Translations under genes and position numbers: made by a program | Shown here: one piece after another, positions 33,914 to 62,449 of the stretch | How positions within the stretch are numbered: the stretch's first letter is position 1 | Layout of the letters: every line of letters starts with the position of its first letter | Notes under the pieces: generated by a model | What the model saw: the letters and a program-made list of their open reading frames with translations, nothing else | Database searches by the model: none | What the model was told of the DNA's origin: nothing | Assembly: GCF_020886775.1 (NCBI RefSeq) | Contig: NZ_AP024525.1 | Span: 3,286,001-3,350,000, forward strand | DNA from: Sinomonas cyclohexanicum | GTDB lineage: Bacteria > Actinomycetota > Actinomycetes > Actinomycetales > Micrococcaceae | Reading direction: 5' to 3' | DNA length: 64,000 nt

Positions 33914-33973
33914 ATGAGCCGCCACCAGACCGCACCCATCACCCTGCGCATCACCCGTGAGGACCAGCCATGA
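33914..33973 (+). CDS. Candidate 19-codon leader ORF overlapping the subtilase start
   Basis: ATG at 33914 opens 19 codons (MSRHQTAPITLRITREDQP) that end in TGA overlapping the subtilase ATG by four bases (ATGA). No Shine-Dalgarno sequence precedes it. It may be a translated leader that couples translation to the protease, or chance; only its position in the predicted leader and the exact ATGA junction argue for it. Confidence 0.3.
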   Translation: MSRHQTAPITLRITREDQP

Positions 33974-35190
33974 ACACGAAGATCAGAGCACCGCGCCTCG
34001 TGGTGCTCCGCGCCCCCGCCCTCCATGCGACCCGCGATCCCTTCGACGGCCCGCGCGCCCGCGGGCTCGGCCCCGCCGTCGAGGCAGCGGAGGCGGCCGC
34101 CTCGGCGACCATCGAGATCGAGGATCGCGCCACGCCGCAGACCGTCGGCGCCCTCCACAGCGACCCGACAGTGCTCGGCTACGCACCCGTGATGCCGGTC
34201 AAGCTCATCGAGCCGTTCGACGCGCCCGACGCCGCGGCCGCGCCCACCGCTTGGGGCGTCGCCGCGGTCGGCGCGGACACCTCCCCGTTCACGGGCGCGG
34301 GCGTGACCGTCGCCGTCCTCGACACGGGCATCGACGCAGACCATCCCGCCTTCACGGGCGTCCAGCTCGTCACCCAGGACTTTACCGGGGCCGGCAGCGC
34401 CGAGGACGACCACGGGCACGGTACCCACTGCGCCGGCACCATCCTGGGGCGGGACCTCGCCGGCGAGAGGATCGGCGTGGCCCGCGGCGTCACGAGGGCA
34501 CTGATCGGCAAGGTCTTGGGCGGTCCCAGTGGCGGCGGCAGCGACACGCTCGCCACCGCGATGATGTGGGCGGCGGACAACGGCGCCAACGTCATCTCCA
34601 TGTCCCTGGGGATCGACTTCCCCGGCTGGGTCCAGGAGCTCGTCACCACGAACGGCCTGCCCATCCCAGCGGCGACCTCGATCGCCCTCGAGGACTACCG
34701 CGCGAACATCCGGCTCTTCGAGCAGGTGGCCAACCTGCTCAATGCGCGCGCGGCCGTCGCGCAGACCACCCTCGTCGTGGCTGCCGCAGGCAACGAGAGT
34801 GAGCGCGGGGGCTCCCCCGCCTACACGATCAACGTCTCTCCCCCGGCCGCCGCGTACGGCGTGCTCTCGGTCGCAGCCCTCGGCCAGGGGGCCGACGGCC
34901 TCGCAGTCGCCCCGTTCTCCAACACGCTCGCCACGGTGGCCGGCCCGGGGGTCGGGATCAAGAGTGCGTGGCTGAACGGGGGCACCAAGACGATCAGCGG
35001 CACGAGCATGGCCACTCCGCACGTCGCCGGCGTGACAGCGCTGTGGGCCGAGAAGCTCCTCGCCCAGGGGCCGCTCAGTCCCGTGCTGCTGCAGTCCAAG
35101 CTTGTCGCCTCCGCCACCACCGACGGCCTGGCCGCCGGGAGCACGCCGGTGGACGTGGGGGCGGGGATCGTGAGGGCTCCACAGGCATAG
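33970..35190 (+). CDS. S8-family subtilisin-like serine protease without signal peptide
   Basis: 406 residues. Catalytic triad is intact: Asp118 (VAVLDTGID), His150 (HGHGTHCAG) and Ser346 (ISGTSMATPHVAG), with oxyanion Asn275 (AAAGNES). Residues 1-95 hold an N-terminal region (SATIEIEDRA, ALHSDPTVLGYAP) that resembles a short propeptide or inhibitor-like domain, but no hydrophobic signal sequence is present, so the enzyme is either cytoplasmic or exported by another route. A 50-residue insertion containing VQELVTTNGLPIPAATS lies between His and Ser. ATG chosen from the ATGA junction with a candidate 19-codon leader ORF. Confidence 0.88.
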   Translation: MNTKIRAPRLVVLRAPALHATRDPFDGPRARGLGPAVEAAEAAASATIEIEDRATPQTVGALHSDPTVLGYAPVMPVKLIEPFDAPDAAAAPTAWGVAAVGADTSPFTGAGVTVAVLDTGIDADHPAFTGVQLVTQDFTGAGSAEDDHGHGTHCAGTILGRDLAGERIGVARGVTRALIGKVLGGPSGGGSDTLATAMMWAADNGANVISMSLGIDFPGWVQELVTTNGLPIPAATSIALEDYRANIRLFEQVANLLNARAAVAQTTLVVAAAGNESERGGSPAYTINVSPPAAAYGVLSVAALGQGADGLAVAPFSNTLATVAGPGVGIKSAWLNGGTKTISGTSMATPHVAGVTALWAEKLLAQGPLSPVLLQSKLVASATTDGLAAGSTPVDVGAGIVRAPQA

Positions 35191-35290: not shown

Positions 35291-36001
35291 GTGAAGCTCC
35301 CCCGCCGCCGCCCTCTGCCCCTGTGGGCTGCGGTGCTGCTCAACGTCGCGATCGGCCTGCTCGTGGTAGGCCTCGTGCAGACCTTCGTGGTCAAGATCGG
35401 CCGGATCCCGTCCGGTTCGATGGAACAGACCCTCCAGAGCACCGAGGGCGGCGGCGACCGCATCCTGGTCAACCGGCTCGCGTACGCGGGCGGTGCCCCT
35501 CCGCACCCGGGTGACATCGTCGCCGTCGTGCGTCCCTCCACCTGGCCGGGCGCGCTGCCCCCGGCGGGGAGCCCGCTCACGGCGCTCGTGCGCGGGTTCG
35601 GCGACCTGACGGGGATCGGCCCGTCCAACGAGGACTACATCGTCAAGAGGGTCGCGGCCGTTGGCGGCCAGCGGATCAGCTGCTGCGACCCCCAGGGGCG
35701 CCTGCTGCTCGACGGCAAGCCCGTCGACGAGCCGTACGTCTACGAGGACCTGCCCTTCGAGCCGGGCGGGCTGGACTGCACGACGGCGGTCCGGTCGCCC
35801 CGCTGCTTCCCCGAGACCCTCGTCCCCGACGGACAACTCGTGCTGCTCGGCGACCACCGGTCCAACTCCGAGGACTCTGTCGCGGACTGCCGGTACCCCG
35901 GAGCGCCCCAGACGTGCGTGCGCACCGTGTCCGACTCGGCGGTCGTGGGCCAGGTGTTCTTCCGCGTCTGGCCGCTCGACCGAATCGGCGTACCCCACTA
36001 G
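35291..36001 (+). CDS. lepB: Signal peptidase I
   Basis: 236-residue type I leader peptidase. One N-terminal membrane anchor (LWAAVLLNVAIGLLVVGLV), then nucleophile Ser43 (IPSGSMEQTL), general base Lys119 (YIVKRVAAVGG) and the LLGDHRSNSEDS box. It contains two pairs of Cys (SCCD; DCTT ... RCF; DCRY), suggesting disulfides on the outer face, unusual for the family. GTG start; TAGGGT six bases upstream indicates a leaderless message. Co-directional with the subtilase before and the tyrosine phosphatase after it. Confidence 0.92.
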   Translation: MKLPRRRPLPLWAAVLLNVAIGLLVVGLVQTFVVKIGRIPSGSMEQTLQSTEGGGDRILVNRLAYAGGAPPHPGDIVAVVRPSTWPGALPPAGSPLTALVRGFGDLTGIGPSNEDYIVKRVAAVGGQRISCCDPQGRLLLDGKPVDEPYVYEDLPFEPGGLDCTTAVRSPRCFPETLVPDGQLVLLGDHRSNSEDSVADCRYPGAPQTCVRTVSDSAVVGQVFFRVWPLDRIGVPH

Positions 36002-36068: not shown

Positions 36069-36671
36069 ATGGCCGAGGAACCGTTCCGCATCCTGGTGGT
36101 GTGCACCGGGAACGTCTGCCGCTCGCCGCTCGCGGGGGCAGTGCTCCGTGATGCCCTCGCCGAGATCGCCCCCGGCGCCTTCGAGGTCGAGAGCGCGGGC
36201 ACACGCGCCCTGGTCGGCGAACCGGCCCAGCCTGAGTCAGCCGCGATCGCGTCGAGTCTCGGCTCGACCCTCGAGGGATTCACGGCGCGCCAGCTCACCG
36301 AGCCCATGATCGAGAGGGCTGATCTGGTCCTTGTCCTCGCGCACCGGCACCGTGACGCTGTCCTTCGCCTGCAGCCCGCGCTGAAGCGCACGTTCACTCT
36401 GCGCGAGTTCGCCAGGATCCTGGCAGCGCTCCCCGTCGACGCCGACGAGCGGGCGCTCGCGCACCGCGGCGAGTCCCCCGAGGCGTGGCGGCGTCTCGTC
36501 TCGCGCGCGTGGGATGCCAAGGCCACCGCGGGAGCGTCGCACGGCGACCCCGCCGACGAGGTCGTGGATCCCTATCGTCTCGGACCCGAGGTGTGGTCGA
36601 AGATGACCGACGAGCTGGTGCCCGCGCTCGAGGTCATCTTCGGGCGCGCCGACATCCTCATCCGCGGCTGA
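36069..36671 (+). CDS. Low-molecular-weight protein-tyrosine phosphatase
   Basis: 200-residue phosphatase. P-loop CTGNVCRS gives nucleophile Cys12 and Arg18; the acid-loop DPYRLG near the C-terminus supplies the catalytic Asp. Slightly longer than the usual 150-160 residues because of an insert around residues 115-160. Faces, tail to tail, a Wzz/BY-kinase gene 27 bases downstream, the expected partner in a tyrosine phosphorylation cycle controlling exopolysaccharide export. TAGGTT seven bases before the ATG suggests leaderless transcription. Stop reads TGACCCC. Confidence 0.9.
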   Translation: MAEEPFRILVVCTGNVCRSPLAGAVLRDALAEIAPGAFEVESAGTRALVGEPAQPESAAIASSLGSTLEGFTARQLTEPMIERADLVLVLAHRHRDAVLRLQPALKRTFTLREFARILAALPVDADERALAHRGESPEAWRRLVSRAWDAKATAGASHGDPADEVVDPYRLGPEVWSKMTDELVPALEVIFGRADILIRG

Positions 36672-36698: not shown

Positions 36699-38945
36699 TC
36701 ACCCGGCGGAGCGGCGGCCGCGCAGCTGCGCGGGCAGCCACATCTCGGTCCCGTCCTCGGCGAGCGGCGCAACGGGCTCCGCGGATGGCGCGTCCTGCGG
36801 CTCCTCCTGGACCGGTGCATGGAGCGGGATCGCGGAGATGATCGGCTGCGGCCGCGTGCTCGTGAAGCGCAGGCCGTCGTGCGAGCGGTCGTGGCGCGGA
36901 TGCGGGCCCTCGCGGAGCGTCTCGTGCTGTGCCTCGAGTGGGGCTGGAGCCGCTGCGAGACGCACTTCGTCGAGGTGTGCGCGGCTTTGCTCTGCCTCGG
37001 CGACGCGCATCCCAGAGGGGGCCTCATCCACGGCCGGTTCAGCGGCGTCCCGGTCAGAAGAGTCGTCCAGGGCCGTATGGCTCCCGTGCACCGACGTCAC
37101 GAGCTGCGGAGCGGGGAACGCGCTGGCCGAGCGCGGCTCCGCGTATGCCGGCTCCGAGGCGAGGACCGGCTCGGACACGTACGGCTCCGGGGTGTACGCC
37201 GGCTCCGACACGTGGACCGGCTCGGCCACGTACGCCGGCTCCGGGGTGTACGCCGGCTCCGACACGTGGACCGGCTCGGACACATACGGCTCCGGGGTGT
37301 ACGCCGGCTCCGACACGTGGACCGGCTCGGCCACGTACGCCGGCTCCGGGGTGTACGCCGGCTCCGAGGTATGGACCGGTTCCGACGCGTACGCGGGCTC
37401 AAGGGCGACGGGCACCTCGACCGCCTCGGCCGGGACAGCCGCCGTGCGCACCTTCGCGGCCTTGCCCTTGGGGCCCTTGCCCTTGGAAGAGTTGCGTCCC
37501 CCCGGGACTTTCTCGCGGCCGCGCTGGTGCTCCGAGTAGGTTCCGTAATAGCCGTACGTGTACGACTCGGGACCCTTGGTCGAGACGCCGTTGAGGATGA
37601 CACCCAGGATCTTGCCGCGGACGCGGTCGAGGTTGCGCACCGCGCGCTCGAGGCCGTCCGTGGTGGTCTTACCGGCTCGGGAGACGATGATCGTGCCGTC
37701 GGCAGCCCGCGAGAGCACGGCGGCGTCGGTCACCGGCAGGAGTGGTGGCGCGTCCACGAGCACCACGGCGTCCTCGGCGAGATGGGCGAGCAGGTTCTTC
37801 ATCATGCGCGAACCGAGCAGCTCCGACGGGTTGGGCGGGATGCGTCCAGCGCCGAGCACCTTCAGGTTCGGCACGCCCGCGTAGGTCTGGAGCACGTCCT
37901 CCACGGACGCGCGCCCCGCCAGCACGTCAGTGAGCCCCACGCCGGGGACCACGTCGAAGACATCGTGCACGGTCGGGCGGCGGAGGTCGGCGTCGACCAC
38001 GACGACATCCTCGCCCGCCGAGGCCATCGCGGCGGCGAGGTTGCCGATGACCGTCGACTTGCCTTCGGAGGGCACAGAGCTCGTGACGAGGATGATGCGC
38101 GGCGGGTTGTCCACGTCGATGAACTGGAGGTTGGTCCGCAGCTCGCGCAGGGCCTCGCCCATGGCGTGGCTCCCGCGTGCGCCCGAGCTGGGGGCCTCGA
38201 GGATGCGGCTGCCCTCGGCGAGCCGCGCATCCGTCGGGAGCGTGCCGATCACGGGGTGGCCGGACGTCCGCTCCGCGTCGGTCGCCGTGCGGATGCGGCG
38301 GTCGAGGTAGCCGCGAAGCAGGGCGTAGCCGAGTCCGAGCAGCAGGCCCGCGCCGCCGCCGATCCCAAGCGCGAGCTTGAGGTTCGGAGAGACGGGCGCG
38401 CCAGGAAGCGCGGCCTTGGCCAGCGGGACGACACGCACGGCCGGCTCGGCGGTCGAGGAACTCGAACTCGCGAGCTCGAGCTCACGGACCTGGGCTGCAA
38501 GCGCCACGACCCAGTCGTCCGCAACCTTCTGGGCGAGGACCGGGTCGGTCGAGTGGGCGGTCACGTGGATCTCCGCGGTGTCCGCGGGGACGGAGACCGT
38601 CACGCCGCCGGCGATGGCTCCCCCGGACAGCGGCAGGCCAAGGTCCTTGACCACGCGGTCGGCCACCAGGAGCGACTCGGCGACGGACTTGTACGACTTC
38701 ACCTTCGCCTTCGCGAGGTTGTCCCCCGCGAGCGAGAGGCCGAGGTTGTCCGCGCCGCCGGCCACCACGATGCCGCTCGAATCGGCCGCGTACACTTTGG
38801 GCTGGATGAGGTACCACCCGAAGGCGAGTGCCGTGGCCGCGGCGACGAACGCGATGATGCCGATCCAATAGCGGCGGGCAAGACGGAGGCCGTCCGCCAG
38901 AGTCAGCGAATTGCCGGCCTGCTGGCCCTCGGGCTCGTGTTCCAC
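36699..38945 (-). CDS. Polysaccharide co-polymerase / bacterial tyrosine kinase with repeat tail
   Basis: 748 residues, about 250 longer than typical actinobacterial Wzz/BY-kinases. Two membrane helices (about 28-48 and 190-212) flank a Wzz-like extracellular loop. The kinase domain has Walker A SSVPSEGKST (289-298), Walker A' VVVDADLRRP and Walker B AVVLVDAPP. The normal Tyr cluster SYTYGYYGTYS follows at about 461-471. After a Lys/Gly-rich stretch comes a Tyr-, Glu- and Pro-rich tail (515-603) with alternating units such as SEPAYTPEPAYVAEPVHV, then a disordered end. GTG start. Likely controls exopolysaccharide chain length with the adjacent phosphatase; the extra tail may offer more phosphotyrosine sites (inference). 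Confidence 0.9.
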   Translation of the reverse strand: MEHEPEGQQAGNSLTLADGLRLARRYWIGIIAFVAAATALAFGWYLIQPKVYAADSSGIVVAGGADNLGLSLAGDNLAKAKVKSYKSVAESLLVADRVVKDLGLPLSGGAIAGGVTVSVPADTAEIHVTAHSTDPVLAQKVADDWVVALAAQVRELELASSSSSTAEPAVRVVPLAKAALPGAPVSPNLKLALGIGGGAGLLLGLGYALLRGYLDRRIRTATDAERTSGHPVIGTLPTDARLAEGSRILEAPSSGARGSHAMGEALRELRTNLQFIDVDNPPRIILVTSSVPSEGKSTVIGNLAAAMASAGEDVVVVDADLRRPTVHDVFDVVPGVGLTDVLAGRASVEDVLQTYAGVPNLKVLGAGRIPPNPSELLGSRMMKNLLAHLAEDAVVLVDAPPLLPVTDAAVLSRAADGTIIVSRAGKTTTDGLERAVRNLDRVRGKILGVILNGVSTKGPESYTYGYYGTYSEHQRGREKVPGGRNSSKGKGPKGKAAKVRTAAVPAEAVEVPVALEPAYASEPVHTSEPAYTPEPAYVAEPVHVSEPAYTPEPYVSEPVHVSEPAYTPEPAYVAEPVHVSEPAYTPEPYVSEPVLASEPAYAEPRSASAFPAPQLVTSVHGSHTALDDSSDRDAAEPAVDEAPSGMRVAEAEQSRAHLDEVRLAAAPAPLEAQHETLREGPHPRHDRSHDGLRFTSTRPQPIISAIPLHAPVQEEPQDAPSAEPVAPLAEDGTEMWLPAQLRGRRSAG
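37140..37400. repeat. Coding tandem repeat in the BY-kinase tail
   Basis: Imperfect tandem units of roughly 51-54 bp (for example the recurring GTACGCCGGCTCCGGGGTG and GACACGTGGACCGGCTCGG blocks) encode the EPAY/EPVH/EPYV repeats. High identity between units at DNA level, including silent positions, points to recent expansion by slippage or recombination. Confidence 0.85.
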
Positions 38946-39065: not shown

Positions 39066-40265
39066 TCAGTCCCCGAGCTCAACCAGGCCCCGCTGCTCGA
39101 GCTCAGACAGCGCCGCCGCCAGGATCGGCGCGAAGCCCCCAGGGAGGCCGATGGTCGCCTCGAGCCGGGCCGCGAGCTCCGCCCGGCTGATCCCGCCAGC
39201 GCCCGTGGTTCCCGCGAGGGCCACCCACACCGCGGGCGCGATCCCTCCGAGCCTGACCAGGGTCGACCCGCTGAGCACGAGGACGTCGGGGCAGTCCGGG
39301 TCACCGCTCGGGACCTCGACCGCGTCCACGGCCTCGCGTCGGCGCACCGCCGCGGCGGCGAGGTGACCGGGCGGGGTGACCGGCCCGGCGTCGTGCGCGC
39401 TGCGCCAGGCCCGTGGCAGCGGCTCGCGGGCGAGCAGCGCGGGGAGGACGTCGGCTAGCTGGTGAGCCTCCGTGTACCGCACGCGGACGGCGCCGCCGCA
39501 CTCGTCGAGGATCCCGCACAGCCATGCGAGCGGCCGCTCGATCCGGGCGAGCGCGGACGTCTGCGGGGCCAGGTCCACGAGGGCGTCGGCGTGCCCGACC
39601 GGTTCCACAGCGGCCGCGTCGAGGCCCGCCTGCCGCTCGAGGAGCACGACGGCGCCGAGCCTCGCCTCCGCGGATGCCAGGGTGAGCCCGAGCTCGTCGG
39701 GTCCCCGCTGGACCTTGGGCGCCGGTGCCGGGGCGTCGATGACCGACAGCGGCTTCGGGTACGGCAGGATGCGGCCCGAGCGCTCTATCGCGACCGTCTC
39801 GTCGCTCACGTACCCGAAGTGCGTGGCGAGGACCCTGGTCGCGGTGGTCTTGCCCATCCCCGAGCGGGCCACGAGCGCCAAGGTCCGCCCCGTCACGGGG
39901 TCCGCGAGGCCGGACGCGTGCAGCATCATGAGCTCACCGGCCCGCTGCTCGATGGCCGCGACCGTCAGGAGCGAAGTCAGCTCGGAGGCGAACTCCGCGA
40001 ACGTCTCGCCCTCCGCGGCGAACGGCGCGGCGCGGCCGACGGCGAGCACCGCCCTCACGGGAGCCGTTCCAGAATCGTGGGGCTCGGCACCGGCCAGTGG
40101 GTCACTCCCGAGGCCGGAGGCCGGGTCGGCCCCGCCGGTCGGGTCCTCGGCGCGGCAGCGGGACCACGCGTCCGCGAGCTTCGCGGCGTCCTCGGGGCCG
40201 ATGCCCCGGTCCCAACGCACGGCGGCAGGCACGCCGAAGAGCATCAGGTGCAGGGGTGCCGTCAT
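39066..40265 (-). CDS. HPr-kinase-like P-loop protein with C-terminal PqqD-like domain
   Basis: 399 residues. Residues about 100-300 resemble the HPr kinase/phosphorylase or PEP-carboxykinase-type P-loop fold: MMLHASGLAD followed by Walker A ARSGMGKT (133-140), TRVLATHFGYVSDETVAI (metal/acidic residues) and PYPKPLSVID. Residues about 315-399 look like a second, winged-helix PqqD/RRE-type domain (VLVLSGSTLVRLGGIAPAVW ... LSELEQRGLVE). ATGA-coupled to the free PqqD-like gene upstream. Such pairs sit near exopolysaccharide genes in other bacteria (HprK-related kinase families); the substrate is unknown. It is probably not the carbon-catabolite HPr kinase, since the PTS genes lie 20 kb away. Confidence 0.65.
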   Translation of the reverse strand: MTAPLHLMLFGVPAAVRWDRGIGPEDAAKLADAWSRCRAEDPTGGADPASGLGSDPLAGAEPHDSGTAPVRAVLAVGRAAPFAAEGETFAEFASELTSLLTVAAIEQRAGELMMLHASGLADPVTGRTLALVARSGMGKTTATRVLATHFGYVSDETVAIERSGRILPYPKPLSVIDAPAPAPKVQRGPDELGLTLASAEARLGAVVLLERQAGLDAAAVEPVGHADALVDLAPQTSALARIERPLAWLCGILDECGGAVRVRYTEAHQLADVLPALLAREPLPRAWRSAHDAGPVTPPGHLAAAAVRRREAVDAVEVPSGDPDCPDVLVLSGSTLVRLGGIAPAVWVALAGTTGAGGISRAELAARLEATIGLPGGFAPILAAALSELEQRGLVELGD

Positions 40266-40585
40266 GCGTCGGACCCCGCTGCGCTGCCGGCCTCGCCGGA
40301 GGCGTCCTCGATGAGCCCGCGTGCGGCGAGTTCGGCGAGGAAGCGGTCGACCTCACGGCCGATCTCGTCGCTGAGCGGGGTCCCGGGGCCGGCGCCGTAC
40401 TCGGCCGCGAGGTCGGCCCGGATCCCGTCCTGGGTGCGGATCCCGTCCACGAGGCACCAGATCCGCGCGGCGGAATCCGTCAGGACGAGGGGGCGGTCAG
40501 CGTCGAGGTGGAGGACGGCTGCACGTGCGCCGTCTTCGGAGACGACCTCCGCGACGCGGCGTCCCCGGCGCCAGATGCGTGCCAT
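40262..40585 (-). CDS. PqqD-like (RRE-fold) small protein
   Basis: 107 residues matching the PqqD/RiPP-recognition-element pattern: an N-terminal beta strand region (AVLHLDADRPLVL), LTDSAARIWCLVDG (the hallmark of PqqD-like winged helices), then helices ending FLAELAARGLIED. Family members bind peptide substrates for modifying enzymes. No radical SAM enzyme, lasso cyclase or precursor peptide is found nearby, so its client may be the fused HPrK-like partner or an envelope protein. ATG at 40585, coupled to the kinase-like gene by ATGA. Confidence 0.72.
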   Translation of the reverse strand: MARIWRRGRRVAEVVSEDGARAAVLHLDADRPLVLTDSAARIWCLVDGIRTQDGIRADLAAEYGAGPGTPLSDEIGREVDRFLAELAARGLIEDASGEAGSAAGSDA

Positions 40586-40741: not shown

Positions 40742-41827
40742 GTGAGCCAGCCCGGACAGCGCCCGGACACTGTCGATGACCTTCTCGACGGGCCCGCACG
40801 GCCGCCGAAGCGCAAGCGTCGGGCCGGGCTCATCGTGCTCTTCTCGGCCATCGGCGTCGTGGTCCTCGCAGCGGTCGCCGCGATCGTGTACTTGGCCAAC
40901 GTTGCCGGGACGTTCGATTCGAAGACCGAGAAGATCGCGAACGCGTTCCCCCAGGAGGCCGCCCGTCCCTCGGCGACCCCGGCACCCAACGGCAAGACCC
41001 CTGTCAACATCCTCCTGGTGGGGTCCGACAGCCGCGGGGCGACCGTCAGCCAGGCCGAGTCCGGCGCGGCGTCGGACCAGCGCTCGGACACGATGATGCT
41101 CGTCCACATCCCGGCGGACCGGAAGGAGGCCTACGTCGTCTCGATCATGCGCGACCTCTGGGTGCCGATCCCGGGACACGGCTCGGCGAAGATCAACGCT
41201 GCCCTCGCCTACGGCGGGGTGCCGCTCATGGTCGAGACCGTCGAGTCCCTCCTCCACCAGCGGATCGACCACGTCGCATTCATCGACTTCGACGGCTTCA
41301 AGGGCCTCACAGACGCTGTGGGGGGTGTCACGGTGAATGTCACACGCCCGTTCGCCTCGACGATGGCCGAGAACCCTGGCCTGGCATTCACAGCGGGGCC
41401 GATGCACATGGACGGGAAGACCGCGTTCGCGTTCGTCCACGAGCGCTACGCCTTCGCCGACGGCGACTACCAGCGGGTCCGCAACCAGCAGGCATTCCTC
41501 AAGGCCCTCATGACCCAGATCATCAAGCCGGAGACGCTCGCCAACCCCGTCACGGTGAGCCAGATCGTCAGCCAGTTCTCGCCGTTCCTCACCGTTGACT
41601 CGGGCCTCGACTCGAAGGCGGTCGCCGGGCTGGCGCTCGAGATGAAGGACGTCCGGCCGTCGGGCGTGGTGAGCTTCACGCTGCCCACCTCGGGGGTCGG
41701 GACGTCCTCGGACGGGCAGTCGATCGTGAACCTCGACCAGGGGGCCACCGACGCGCTCGCCGAGGCGATGGCCCAGGGGACCGTCCCGCAGTACGTGGCC
41801 CAGCGGAACCTGCAGAACGGGAACTGA
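40742..41827 (+). CDS. LytR-CpsA-Psr family cell-wall glycopolymer ligase
   Basis: 361 residues, single N-terminal membrane helix (AGLIVLFSAIGVVVLAAVAA) and an extracytoplasmic LCP domain with conserved pyrophosphate-binding segments: VGSDSRG, RSDTMMLVHI, MRDLWVPIPG, KINAALAYGG and the VHERYAFADGDYQRVRNQQ stretch. Transfers undecaprenyl-linked polymers to peptidoglycan or arabinogalactan-like acceptors. GTG start with GAGGA nearby; a TACTAT box at 40703-40708 gives a plausible promoter. Divergent from the PqqD gene, fitting an envelope polymer locus. Confidence 0.92.
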   Translation: MSQPGQRPDTVDDLLDGPARPPKRKRRAGLIVLFSAIGVVVLAAVAAIVYLANVAGTFDSKTEKIANAFPQEAARPSATPAPNGKTPVNILLVGSDSRGATVSQAESGAASDQRSDTMMLVHIPADRKEAYVVSIMRDLWVPIPGHGSAKINAALAYGGVPLMVETVESLLHQRIDHVAFIDFDGFKGLTDAVGGVTVNVTRPFASTMAENPGLAFTAGPMHMDGKTAFAFVHERYAFADGDYQRVRNQQAFLKALMTQIIKPETLANPVTVSQIVSQFSPFLTVDSGLDSKAVAGLALEMKDVRPSGVVSFTLPTSGVGTSSDGQSIVNLDQGATDALAEAMAQGTVPQYVAQRNLQNGN

Positions 41828-62173: not shown

Positions 62174-62449
62174 ATGGCAGAACGCACCGCTACGATCGGC
62201 TCACGCGTGGGCCTGCACGCCCGCCCGGCCGCGATCTTCGCCGAGGCCGCCGGCGAGGCCGGCCTCGAGGTCACGATCGCGAAGGCCGGAGAACCCGCGG
62301 ACGAGGCCATGGACGCCTCCAGCATCCTCTCCCTCATGAGCCTCGGCGCCGAATACGGCCAGCAGGTCATCCTCCGCGCCGAAGGCCCCGGCGCCGAAGA
62401 GGCCCTCGACAGGCTCGTCACCGTCCTCGAAACCGACCACGACGCATAG
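62174..62449 (+). CDS. ptsH: Phosphocarrier protein HPr
   Basis: 91 residues. Phosphohistidine His15 in RVGLHARPAA; the regulatory-serine region is DASSILSLMSLG, as in other HPr proteins. AAGGAG precedes the ATG. Receives phosphate from the enzyme I encoded 47 bases upstream and passes it to EIIA of MtlA. Its TAG overlaps by one base the GTG of the next gene. Confidence 0.95.
   Translation: MAERTATIGSRVGLHARPAAIFAEAAGEAGLEVTIAKAGEPADEAMDASSILSLMSLGAEYGQQVILRAEGPGAEEALDRLVTVLETDHDA

Follow-up and report, generated by a model that had tools for sequence, protein, structure and literature searches.

A putative RRE-guided kinase pair encoded in Sinomonas cyclohexanicum and its candidate Tat-exported substrates

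Two overlapping genes, encoding a PqqD-like protein and an HprK-like kinase, were located in a 64,000-nucleotide stretch of the Sinomonas cyclohexanicum genome (hereafter, the window). With moderate confidence, they are interpreted as providing substrate recognition and kinase activity at the heart of a pathway for RRE-guided protein phosphorylation, the substrates of which would be Tat-exported surface proteins encoded in trans in Sinomonas. That the partners of the kinase are proteins carrying an RRE-type WxxPx[VI] motif in their Tat signal peptide is strongly supported by comparative genomics. The pair probably phosphorylates this surface-protein family just ahead of export, a proposal based on which genomes carry the pair and on what adjoins it. 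Among the open-access papers listed in literature searches, none dealt with an RRE or an HprK-like kinase that modifies Tat substrates. If correct, this reading would extend RRE-guided chemistry beyond small peptide natural products to ordinary exported proteins, and would explain the presence of HprK-like kinases and PqqD proteins in polysaccharide loci that lack the usual RiPP enzymes. As it names particular proteins as candidate substrates, a single residue as the candidate site and a candidate for the protease, the question of the kinase target becomes testable in a laboratory actinobacterium.

Results

The pqqD-like and hprK-like reading frames share bases 40262-40265 as ATGA (Table 1). 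The 107-aa PqqD protein matched PF05402 with an E-value of 1.1e-10 and 42.1 bits, against a gathering score of 23.4, and was the only protein of the 4.41 Mb, single-contig genome to match this family at E<=0.001. When a profile of 12 PqqD sequences was ranked against the PDB, TbiB1 came first, followed by PbaB1, PqqCD and LppB. The AlphaFold (AF2) model of the protein (mean pLDDT 90) displayed the winged helix-turn-helix fold of an RRE, with TbiB1 and PqqCD as its top PDB matches and the structure of TbiB1 with bound leader as the best of these (TMq 0.70, rmsd 1.6). By sequence and modelled fold, the protein is classed here as an RRE of the lasso/LPP type, TbiB1 being the closest match of both profile and model. 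Coordinates, PF05402 match and model agree with a sequence-only reading of this DNA, which had described a free PqqD/RRE protein overlapping a larger gene.

No Pfam family, HPrK included, exceeded its cut-off on the 399-aa kinase. The NCBIfam model HprK_rel_A (TIGR04352) reached an E-value of 1.1e-4 and 21.5 bits against a curated cut-off of 200, and PqqD_rel_X (TIGR04353) gave a weak match to the C terminus (E=0.025). Both protein types of the HPr-rel-A system (TIGR04352 and TIGR04353) are thus recognizable by weak profile matches, but the scores lie far under both curated cut-offs, and the kinase is here fused to an RRE. Over the C terminus, a profile of 28 kinase sequences matched LppB (9x8z, E=5e-6), TbiB1 (5v1u, E=1.8e-4) and PbaB1 (9x90, E=1.2e-3) in the PDB, the remaining matches of the profile being mostly to P-loops (ABC transporters and other ATPases). 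By these profile matches, the C-terminal domain is assigned as a second RRE, likewise of the lasso/LPP type. The AlphaFold model of the kinase (mean pLDDT 93, pTM 0.90) retrieved PEPCK and HPrK/P by Foldseek (best E 6e-4), and in the VIA structure comparison 50 of 50 among the matches listed were PEPCK (Z up to 14.2, rmsd 4.3, 239 aligned residues). From alignment and model, the kinase body is assigned to the HPrK/PEPCK fold, and its P-loop is intact. The earlier description of an HPrK-like P-loop protein with a second PqqD-like C terminus is borne out by the fold model and the LppB/TbiB1 profile matches, and structure prediction of each protein alone recovered both the RRE and the HPrK/PEPCK fold, the joint absence of which that reading had named as refuting.

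Across 14 kinase homologues, His116, the P-loop, Asp155-Glu156 and Lys171-Pro-Leu-Ser were invariant; over 28 homologues, the invariant residues included His116, Gly136, Gly138, Lys139, Thr141 and Asp155-Glu156. His116 is located at what we take to be the position of the conserved His of HPrK, and HPrK has Asp-Asp where this kinase has Asp155-Glu156. At E<1e-30, 15 of 58 genomes (its own included) encode the kinase, which, together with the invariant residues among the 14 homologues, argues that the gene pair is not a product of chance.

Table 1. Features of the kinase locus, in window positions
Feature	Position	Strand	Basis
pqqD-like gene, free RRE protein, 107 aa	40262-40585	-	PF05402, profile, AlphaFold model
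PqqD/RRE domain within the 107-aa protein	40310-40516	-	PF05402 match
HprK-like kinase with C-terminal RRE domain, 399 aa	39066-40265	-	ORF, NCBIfam, alignment, profile, model
Walker A ARSGMGKT, residues 133-140	39846-39869	-	Sequence, alignments of 14 and 28 homologues
His116, invariant	39918-39920	-	Alignments of 14 and 28 homologues
Asp155-Glu156, invariant, candidate catalytic/metal residues	39798-39803	-	Alignments of 14 and 28 homologues
C-terminal RRE domain, approximately residues 308-397, boundaries approximate	39075-39344	-	LppB 9x8z and TbiB1 5v1u profile matches, secondary structure
Signal peptidase I, third of the genome, proposed leader/signal peptidase	35291-36001	+	Profile scan, homologue survey
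LMW protein tyrosine phosphatase	36069-36671	+	PF01451 (scanned from 36078); start from gene calling
Wzz/BY-kinase	36699-38945	-	Profile scan; gene order common to the window and 7 more Sinomonas loci
LCP glycopolymer ligase, divergent from pqqD	40742-41827	+	PF03816; kept neighbour in Sinomonas

A classical HPr kinase acting on Ser46 of HPr is a reading that we practically discount. A PTS HPr gene is present in the window (62174-62449, PF00381), approximately 22 kb from the kinase, and by eye its product has a serine at about the position of Ser46, as placed by what we take to be the Ser46 motif. This proximity was judged coincidental, and HPr was rejected as an unlikely substrate given the patchy distribution of the kinase (15/58 genomes), the two RREs and the lack of a Pfam HPrK match. 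The protein resembles HPr kinase/phosphorylase in its P-loop kinase fold, but differs from it in having no Pfam HPrK match, in the attached RRE and in that HPr is an unlikely target.

The neighbouring genes were all as the sequence-only reading had named them: a profile scan recovered the Wzz/BY-kinase, the LCP protein, the tyrosine phosphatase and the signal peptidase. The Wzz/BY-kinase gene has the same direction as pqqD-hprK and probably forms one operon with it, while a role of the LCP protein in the kinase pathway is an unproven candidate association in Sinomonas. The kinase was present in eight of 15 Sinomonas genomes, and in all eight the block had the order signal peptidase, LMW phosphatase, Wzz/BY-kinase, kinase, PqqD and LCP, flanked by paa genes and a prolyl oligopeptidase (8/8). 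Three signal peptidases I are encoded in the genome, of which two are adjacent to each other and presumably housekeeping; the third is the window copy, with sigpep_I_bact as its best NCBIfam match. Close homologues of this third enzyme (E<1e-50, the next match being at 3e-33) were found in 11 of 15 kinase-positive genomes versus none of 43 kinase-negative genomes, cases that are not independent since eight of the 11 represent the syntenic Sinomonas block, so that the co-occurrence arises in part because both genes belong to one gene block.

Two further features of this region were recorded. A gene for a mycosin-like S8 protease (33970-35190) lies between the paa genes and the signal peptidase gene, and looks specific to the present strain or its close kin, as none of the genes in the loci used for comparison grouped with it. 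In a long extension at the C terminus of the Wzz/BY-kinase (37143-37400), imperfect 54/105-bp repeats encode SEPAYTPEPAYVAEPVHV-type Tyr-rich units. By a simple pattern, 13 such units were counted in the window, one in locus L047 and none in the other 12 Sinomonas loci, which partly duplicate the same genomes; further sites of phosphorylation may be present in this tail.

A second kinase, 42% identical to the window kinase, is encoded at 3.02 Mb of the same genome. Its locus (L030, 3376-19995) also has a Wzz/BY-kinase of its own, along with a phosphatase-like protein and a surface protein of the choice-of-anchor G type. Two PF14907 nucleotidyltransferases are encoded there as well; they are the only two PF14907 matches of the genome, none being found at the window locus. 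Acyltransferase- and glycosyltransferase-like genes were also noted there by eye.

In other Actinobacteria, the kinase gene often adjoins a gene for a small Tat-exported protein. The signals of these partners follow the consensus RR-x-x-x-[KR]-G-A-A-W-[ST]-x-P-[AV]-[IV], which contains WxxPx[VI]; this motif sits within the hydrophobic core of the signal. In the present genome, Tat-WxxP signals were found on the choice-of-anchor G protein of the second kinase locus and on a 173-aa protein encoded at approximately 3.054 Mb. A six-frame search for RR..WxxP found no Tat-WxxP gene in the window, and none was found within 5 kb of the kinase in window-type Sinomonas loci; this location of the Sinomonas substrates in trans counts against the proposal that Tat-WxxP proteins are the substrates. 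Small [Y/W]xxP reading frames at 33-46 kb were considered as a locally encoded precursor and rejected, the matches being judged wrong-frame or inside other genes.

The distribution of these signals was followed with a profile (A2) of 17 Tat-WxxP N-termini, none of them from Sinomonas, at a threshold of E<=1e-5; in the 58 genomes, this value is flanked by an empty interval from 4.9e-6 to 1.1e-4. Matches were obtained in 15 of 15 kinase-positive genomes (own genome included) versus one of 43 kinase-negative genomes. In a class set of 394 genomes, 18 of the 19 with a strong kinase match (E<=1e-70) had an A2 match, against five of the 375 others, and in a family set of 395 genomes the corresponding figures were 107/109 and 8/286, with 93/95 among the kinase-positive genomes absent from the earlier sets. 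In the class and family sets, four first-look candidates were scored per genome for the kinase and at most 18 for A2, so that absences there may be misses. The genome sets overlap, some member genomes supplied A2, and the co-occurrence P values ignore phylogeny. The comparison that controls best for ancestry is that within Sinomonas, where A2 matched in 8/8 kinase-positive versus 0/7 kinase-negative genomes (Fisher 1.6e-4, uncorrected for ancestry). Ordinary Tat signals (E<=1) gave 10-15 matches in the kinase-positive and 6-11 in the kinase-negative Sinomonas genomes; the latter, though with somewhat fewer matches, are therefore not short of Tat substrates.

The register of the motif was read from 119 distinct A2 matches, of which 98 had E<1e-6 and a Trp found by pattern; near-duplicates are among the signals counted. 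Of the 98 aligned signals, 95% had Pro at W+3 and 99% had it at W+12. After four signals from kinase-negative exceptions had been set aside, 77 of the remaining 94 had Ser at W+17 and 14 had it at W+18, hence 91 at either position; of the four set aside, one had Ser at +17, one had Thr and two had neither. The distance from RR to Trp was 9 in 88 of the 94 signals, 8 in one and 12 in five, and these last five had Ser at W+17 (three) or W+18 (two). The Trp-Ser register was thus kept at RR-Trp spacings of 9, 12 and, in the family described next, 15. The candidate Ser is positioned at or just past the expected signal-peptidase site (A-x-A, read by eye), and the constant Trp-Ser distance could partly reflect signal-peptide geometry.

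Family f38, in which only weak kinase matches were obtained and which contributed nothing to A2, served as an out-of-sample case. A Tat protein adjoined pqqD-hprK in nine of nine f38 kinase loci (G113, G144, G166, G177, G207, G216, G252, G261 and G269), with a signal in which RR is followed by W[TVA]xP[TA][VI]. All nine proteins had an RR-Trp distance of 15, with Ser at W+17 in seven and at W+19 in two. A blind check was made on six weak A2 matches in f38 genomes scored as kinase-negative in the class set (G129, G226, G244 and G285). All three matches with WxxP (G129, G226, G285) had pqqD adjacent, with the kinase detected in two cases, and all three Trp-less matches (G129, G244, G285) were without adjacent pqqD or kinase. 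In a weak-kinase genome of yet another family (G088), a WxxP Tat protein also adjoined pqqD-hprK, its nearest Ser being at about W+19. No Tat-WxxP partner was seen in the weak-kinase genomes G118, G128 and G133 (two loci) of other families, and this counts against the substrate proposal.

It could be argued that WxxP is a mere lineage-specific feature of Tat signals, serving for example the signal peptidase, and that its co-occurrence with the kinase stems from ancestry or co-transfer. The location of the motif within the hydrophobic core and the eight family-set genomes with WxxP but no detected kinase would fit such an origin. It is nonetheless strongly doubted: the Trp-Pro-Ser register stays constant at RR-Trp distances of 9, 12 and 15, WxxP was found in none of 21 readable generic Tat signals (among 30 control loci listed), motif and kinase vary together inside one genus, and of the six weak f38 matches only the three with WxxP had pqqD adjacent.

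Genomes with one part alone count against Tat-WxxP proteins as substrates. A2 matches without a detected kinase occurred in the eight family-set genomes and, in the class set, in G045, G202, G290, G370 and G410, the G202 match being without Trp; the kinase occurred without an A2 match in G361, G534 and G602. Of the exceptions, which also include G474, G487, G496 and G737, four were looked at (G490, G581, G667 and G746), and no kinase was seen in the stretches around their Tat-WxxP genes; genome G746 is 65% complete. The RRE residue F-4, a position proposed to contribute to the discrimination between Trp and Tyr leaders, was Q in seven, E in two (the window's included) and D in three of 12 sequences when the alignment was read by eye, and this mixture likewise counts against the proposal.

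Within 47 named kinase loci, a Tat-WxxP gene was located within 5 kb in 20, a figure that is not independent since many of these loci supplied A2. A free PqqD gene was found in 17, an LMW phosphatase in 14, a window-type signal peptidase in 11, LCP in eight, PF14907 in seven and VanZ in six. A co-occurrence with EPS genes, suggested earlier as a check, was observed, a Wzz/BY-kinase lying within 9 kb in 26 of the 47. Sixteen loci, some of them ending at contig ends, had none of the eight tested partner families, which again counts against the substrate proposal; Janibacter, Leifsonia and Ornithinimicrobium are among them.

That the kinase acts on the neighbouring Wzz/BY-kinase and LCP proteins and so regulates EPS assembly, its RREs being merely docking domains, is held to be unlikely. 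The 26 loci with a nearby Wzz/BY-kinase and the shared direction of pqqD, hprK and wzz-BYK in Sinomonas are what it would predict, yet the other 21 loci showed no Wzz/BY-kinase over 9 kb or as far as the contig end, the WxxP motif family follows the kinase from one genome to the next, and [Y/W]xxP leaders are what such RREs bind (PMC13381572). The idea of protein or peptide phosphorylation linked to the cell surface, put forward in the sequence-only reading, which named no substrate, finds support, whereas the genome-wide evidence favours Tat-exported proteins over Wzz/LCP as its targets.

Among the kinase homologues without tested partners, those of Janibacter and Leifsonia (L086, L089, L090, L091, L093; L069, L072, L077, L087) lie in conserved contexts. 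In some partnerless loci (e.g., L063, L071, L076, L079, L080), a small RRE-type gene was noted 3' of the kinase gene.

Discussion

The closest parallel is the LPP (linear polyphosphorylated peptide) pathway (LppA/B/K/S/N) reported from Bacillota in 2026. There, discrete RREs are reported to bind [Y/W]xxPx[L/V/I/F/A] leaders, LppB being the RRE that binds [Y/W]xxP, LppK phosphorylates Ser3 of the core and LppS cleaves; the leader is removed by a SipW-like signal peptidase with the assistance of the RRE (PMC13381572). The same paper places LPP clusters in capsule loci and states that LPPs are Bacillota-restricted, with precursors of 35-200 aa, a SipW-like SpI and an MsbA-like transporter (PMC13381572). 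The present system shares with it a discrete lasso-type RRE together with an HprK-like kinase, a signal-peptidase-like protease, a capsule-locus setting, an NTP transferase (here in the paralogous locus alone) and a [Y/W]xxPx[V/L] motif followed by Ser, at +17/+18 here and at +18 in LPP as counted from the published numbering (PMC13381572). It differs in its occurrence in Actinobacteria, in that exported proteins carry the motif inside a Tat signal, in a signal peptidase with the bacterial model as its best NCBIfam match (the LPP enzyme being of the SipW-like, archaeal type), in an additional RRE that forms part of the kinase and in the lack of a PF14907 NTP transferase in the window cluster. 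No convincing small precursor with the YxxPxVLxHQxIxFETxxS leader of LPP was found at 33-46 kb, and the partners have a Tat-signal WxxP instead. The sequence-only reading had stated that no RiPP machinery is present, which is correct only in part. No lasso macrolactam cyclase or B2 cysteine leader peptidase was found among the seven scanned window proteins or noticed in the gene lists, but RiPP machinery is not simply absent, since an RRE, an HprK-like kinase and a signal-peptidase-like protease constitute the LPP core (PMC13381572).

HprK-like kinases are also known from lasso peptide pathways: PadeK, ThcoK and PsmK phosphorylate a Ser of lasso precursors (paeninodin/pseudomycoidin), and PsmN is reported to add hexose onto the phosphorylated Ser of pseudomycoidin (PMC9266682). 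By analogy, the system described here would share with these an HprK-like kinase, a precursor Ser and an RRE-containing pathway, but the candidate Ser adjoins the signal-peptide site, whereas the lasso Ser is C-terminal. A kinase that phosphorylates a small molecule or sugar for the polymer, linked to Tat-WxxP proteins indirectly through a common surface-polymer trait, is thought quite improbable. The HPrK/PEPCK fold does include small-molecule enzymes, the VIA matches listed were all PEPCK and polymer genes are often near the kinase; however, if the substrate were not a peptide, the two RRE domains would be difficult to account for; the partners carry the RRE motif, and LppK, PadeK and PsmK are described as peptide kinases of this type (PMC13381572, PMC9266682).

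For the preferred reading, phosphorylation of Tat-WxxP proteins, the following course is envisaged. In the cytoplasm, the RRE would hold the WxxP motif while the kinase phosphorylates the conserved Ser (Trp+17, sometimes +18/+19). Tat exports proteins already folded inside the cell, and this route therefore suits a cytoplasmic modification step. After export by Tat, the dedicated signal peptidase I would free the protein, leaving phospho-Ser near its new N terminus. One might speculate that the surface protein is attached through this mark to the polymer of the neighbouring Wzz/LCP genes. Where a PF14907 enzyme is encoded, the phosphate may be extended, by analogy with PsmN in pseudomycoidin (PMC9266682). 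As a tentative wider proposal, a widespread actinobacterial system is possible in which one and the same peptide serves as Tat signal and RiPP-type leader and an N-terminal phospho-Ser links surface proteins to extracellular polysaccharide; sugar or nucleotide transfer onto the phosphate by PF14907 enzymes in some loci is an equally tentative component of this joint proposal.

For 62 complete Tat-WxxP proteins, the mature part was 78-495 aa long, with a median of 146; two of the 62 had a hydrophobic tail and six a loose LPxTG-like tail match. It is not claimed that the N-terminal mark substitutes for a membrane anchor as a covalent attachment, because eight of the nine f38 proteins carry LPxTG. 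One Tat-WxxP protein (L067, 12756-13736) has a TQXA domain, which we take to be a feature of thioester surface adhesins. In Nocardioides, a 481-486 aa PF14907 protein is encoded directly after the kinase (L062, 9708-11153; L070, 9603-11063), and the 130-140 N-terminal residues ahead of its domain appear RRE-like by eye.
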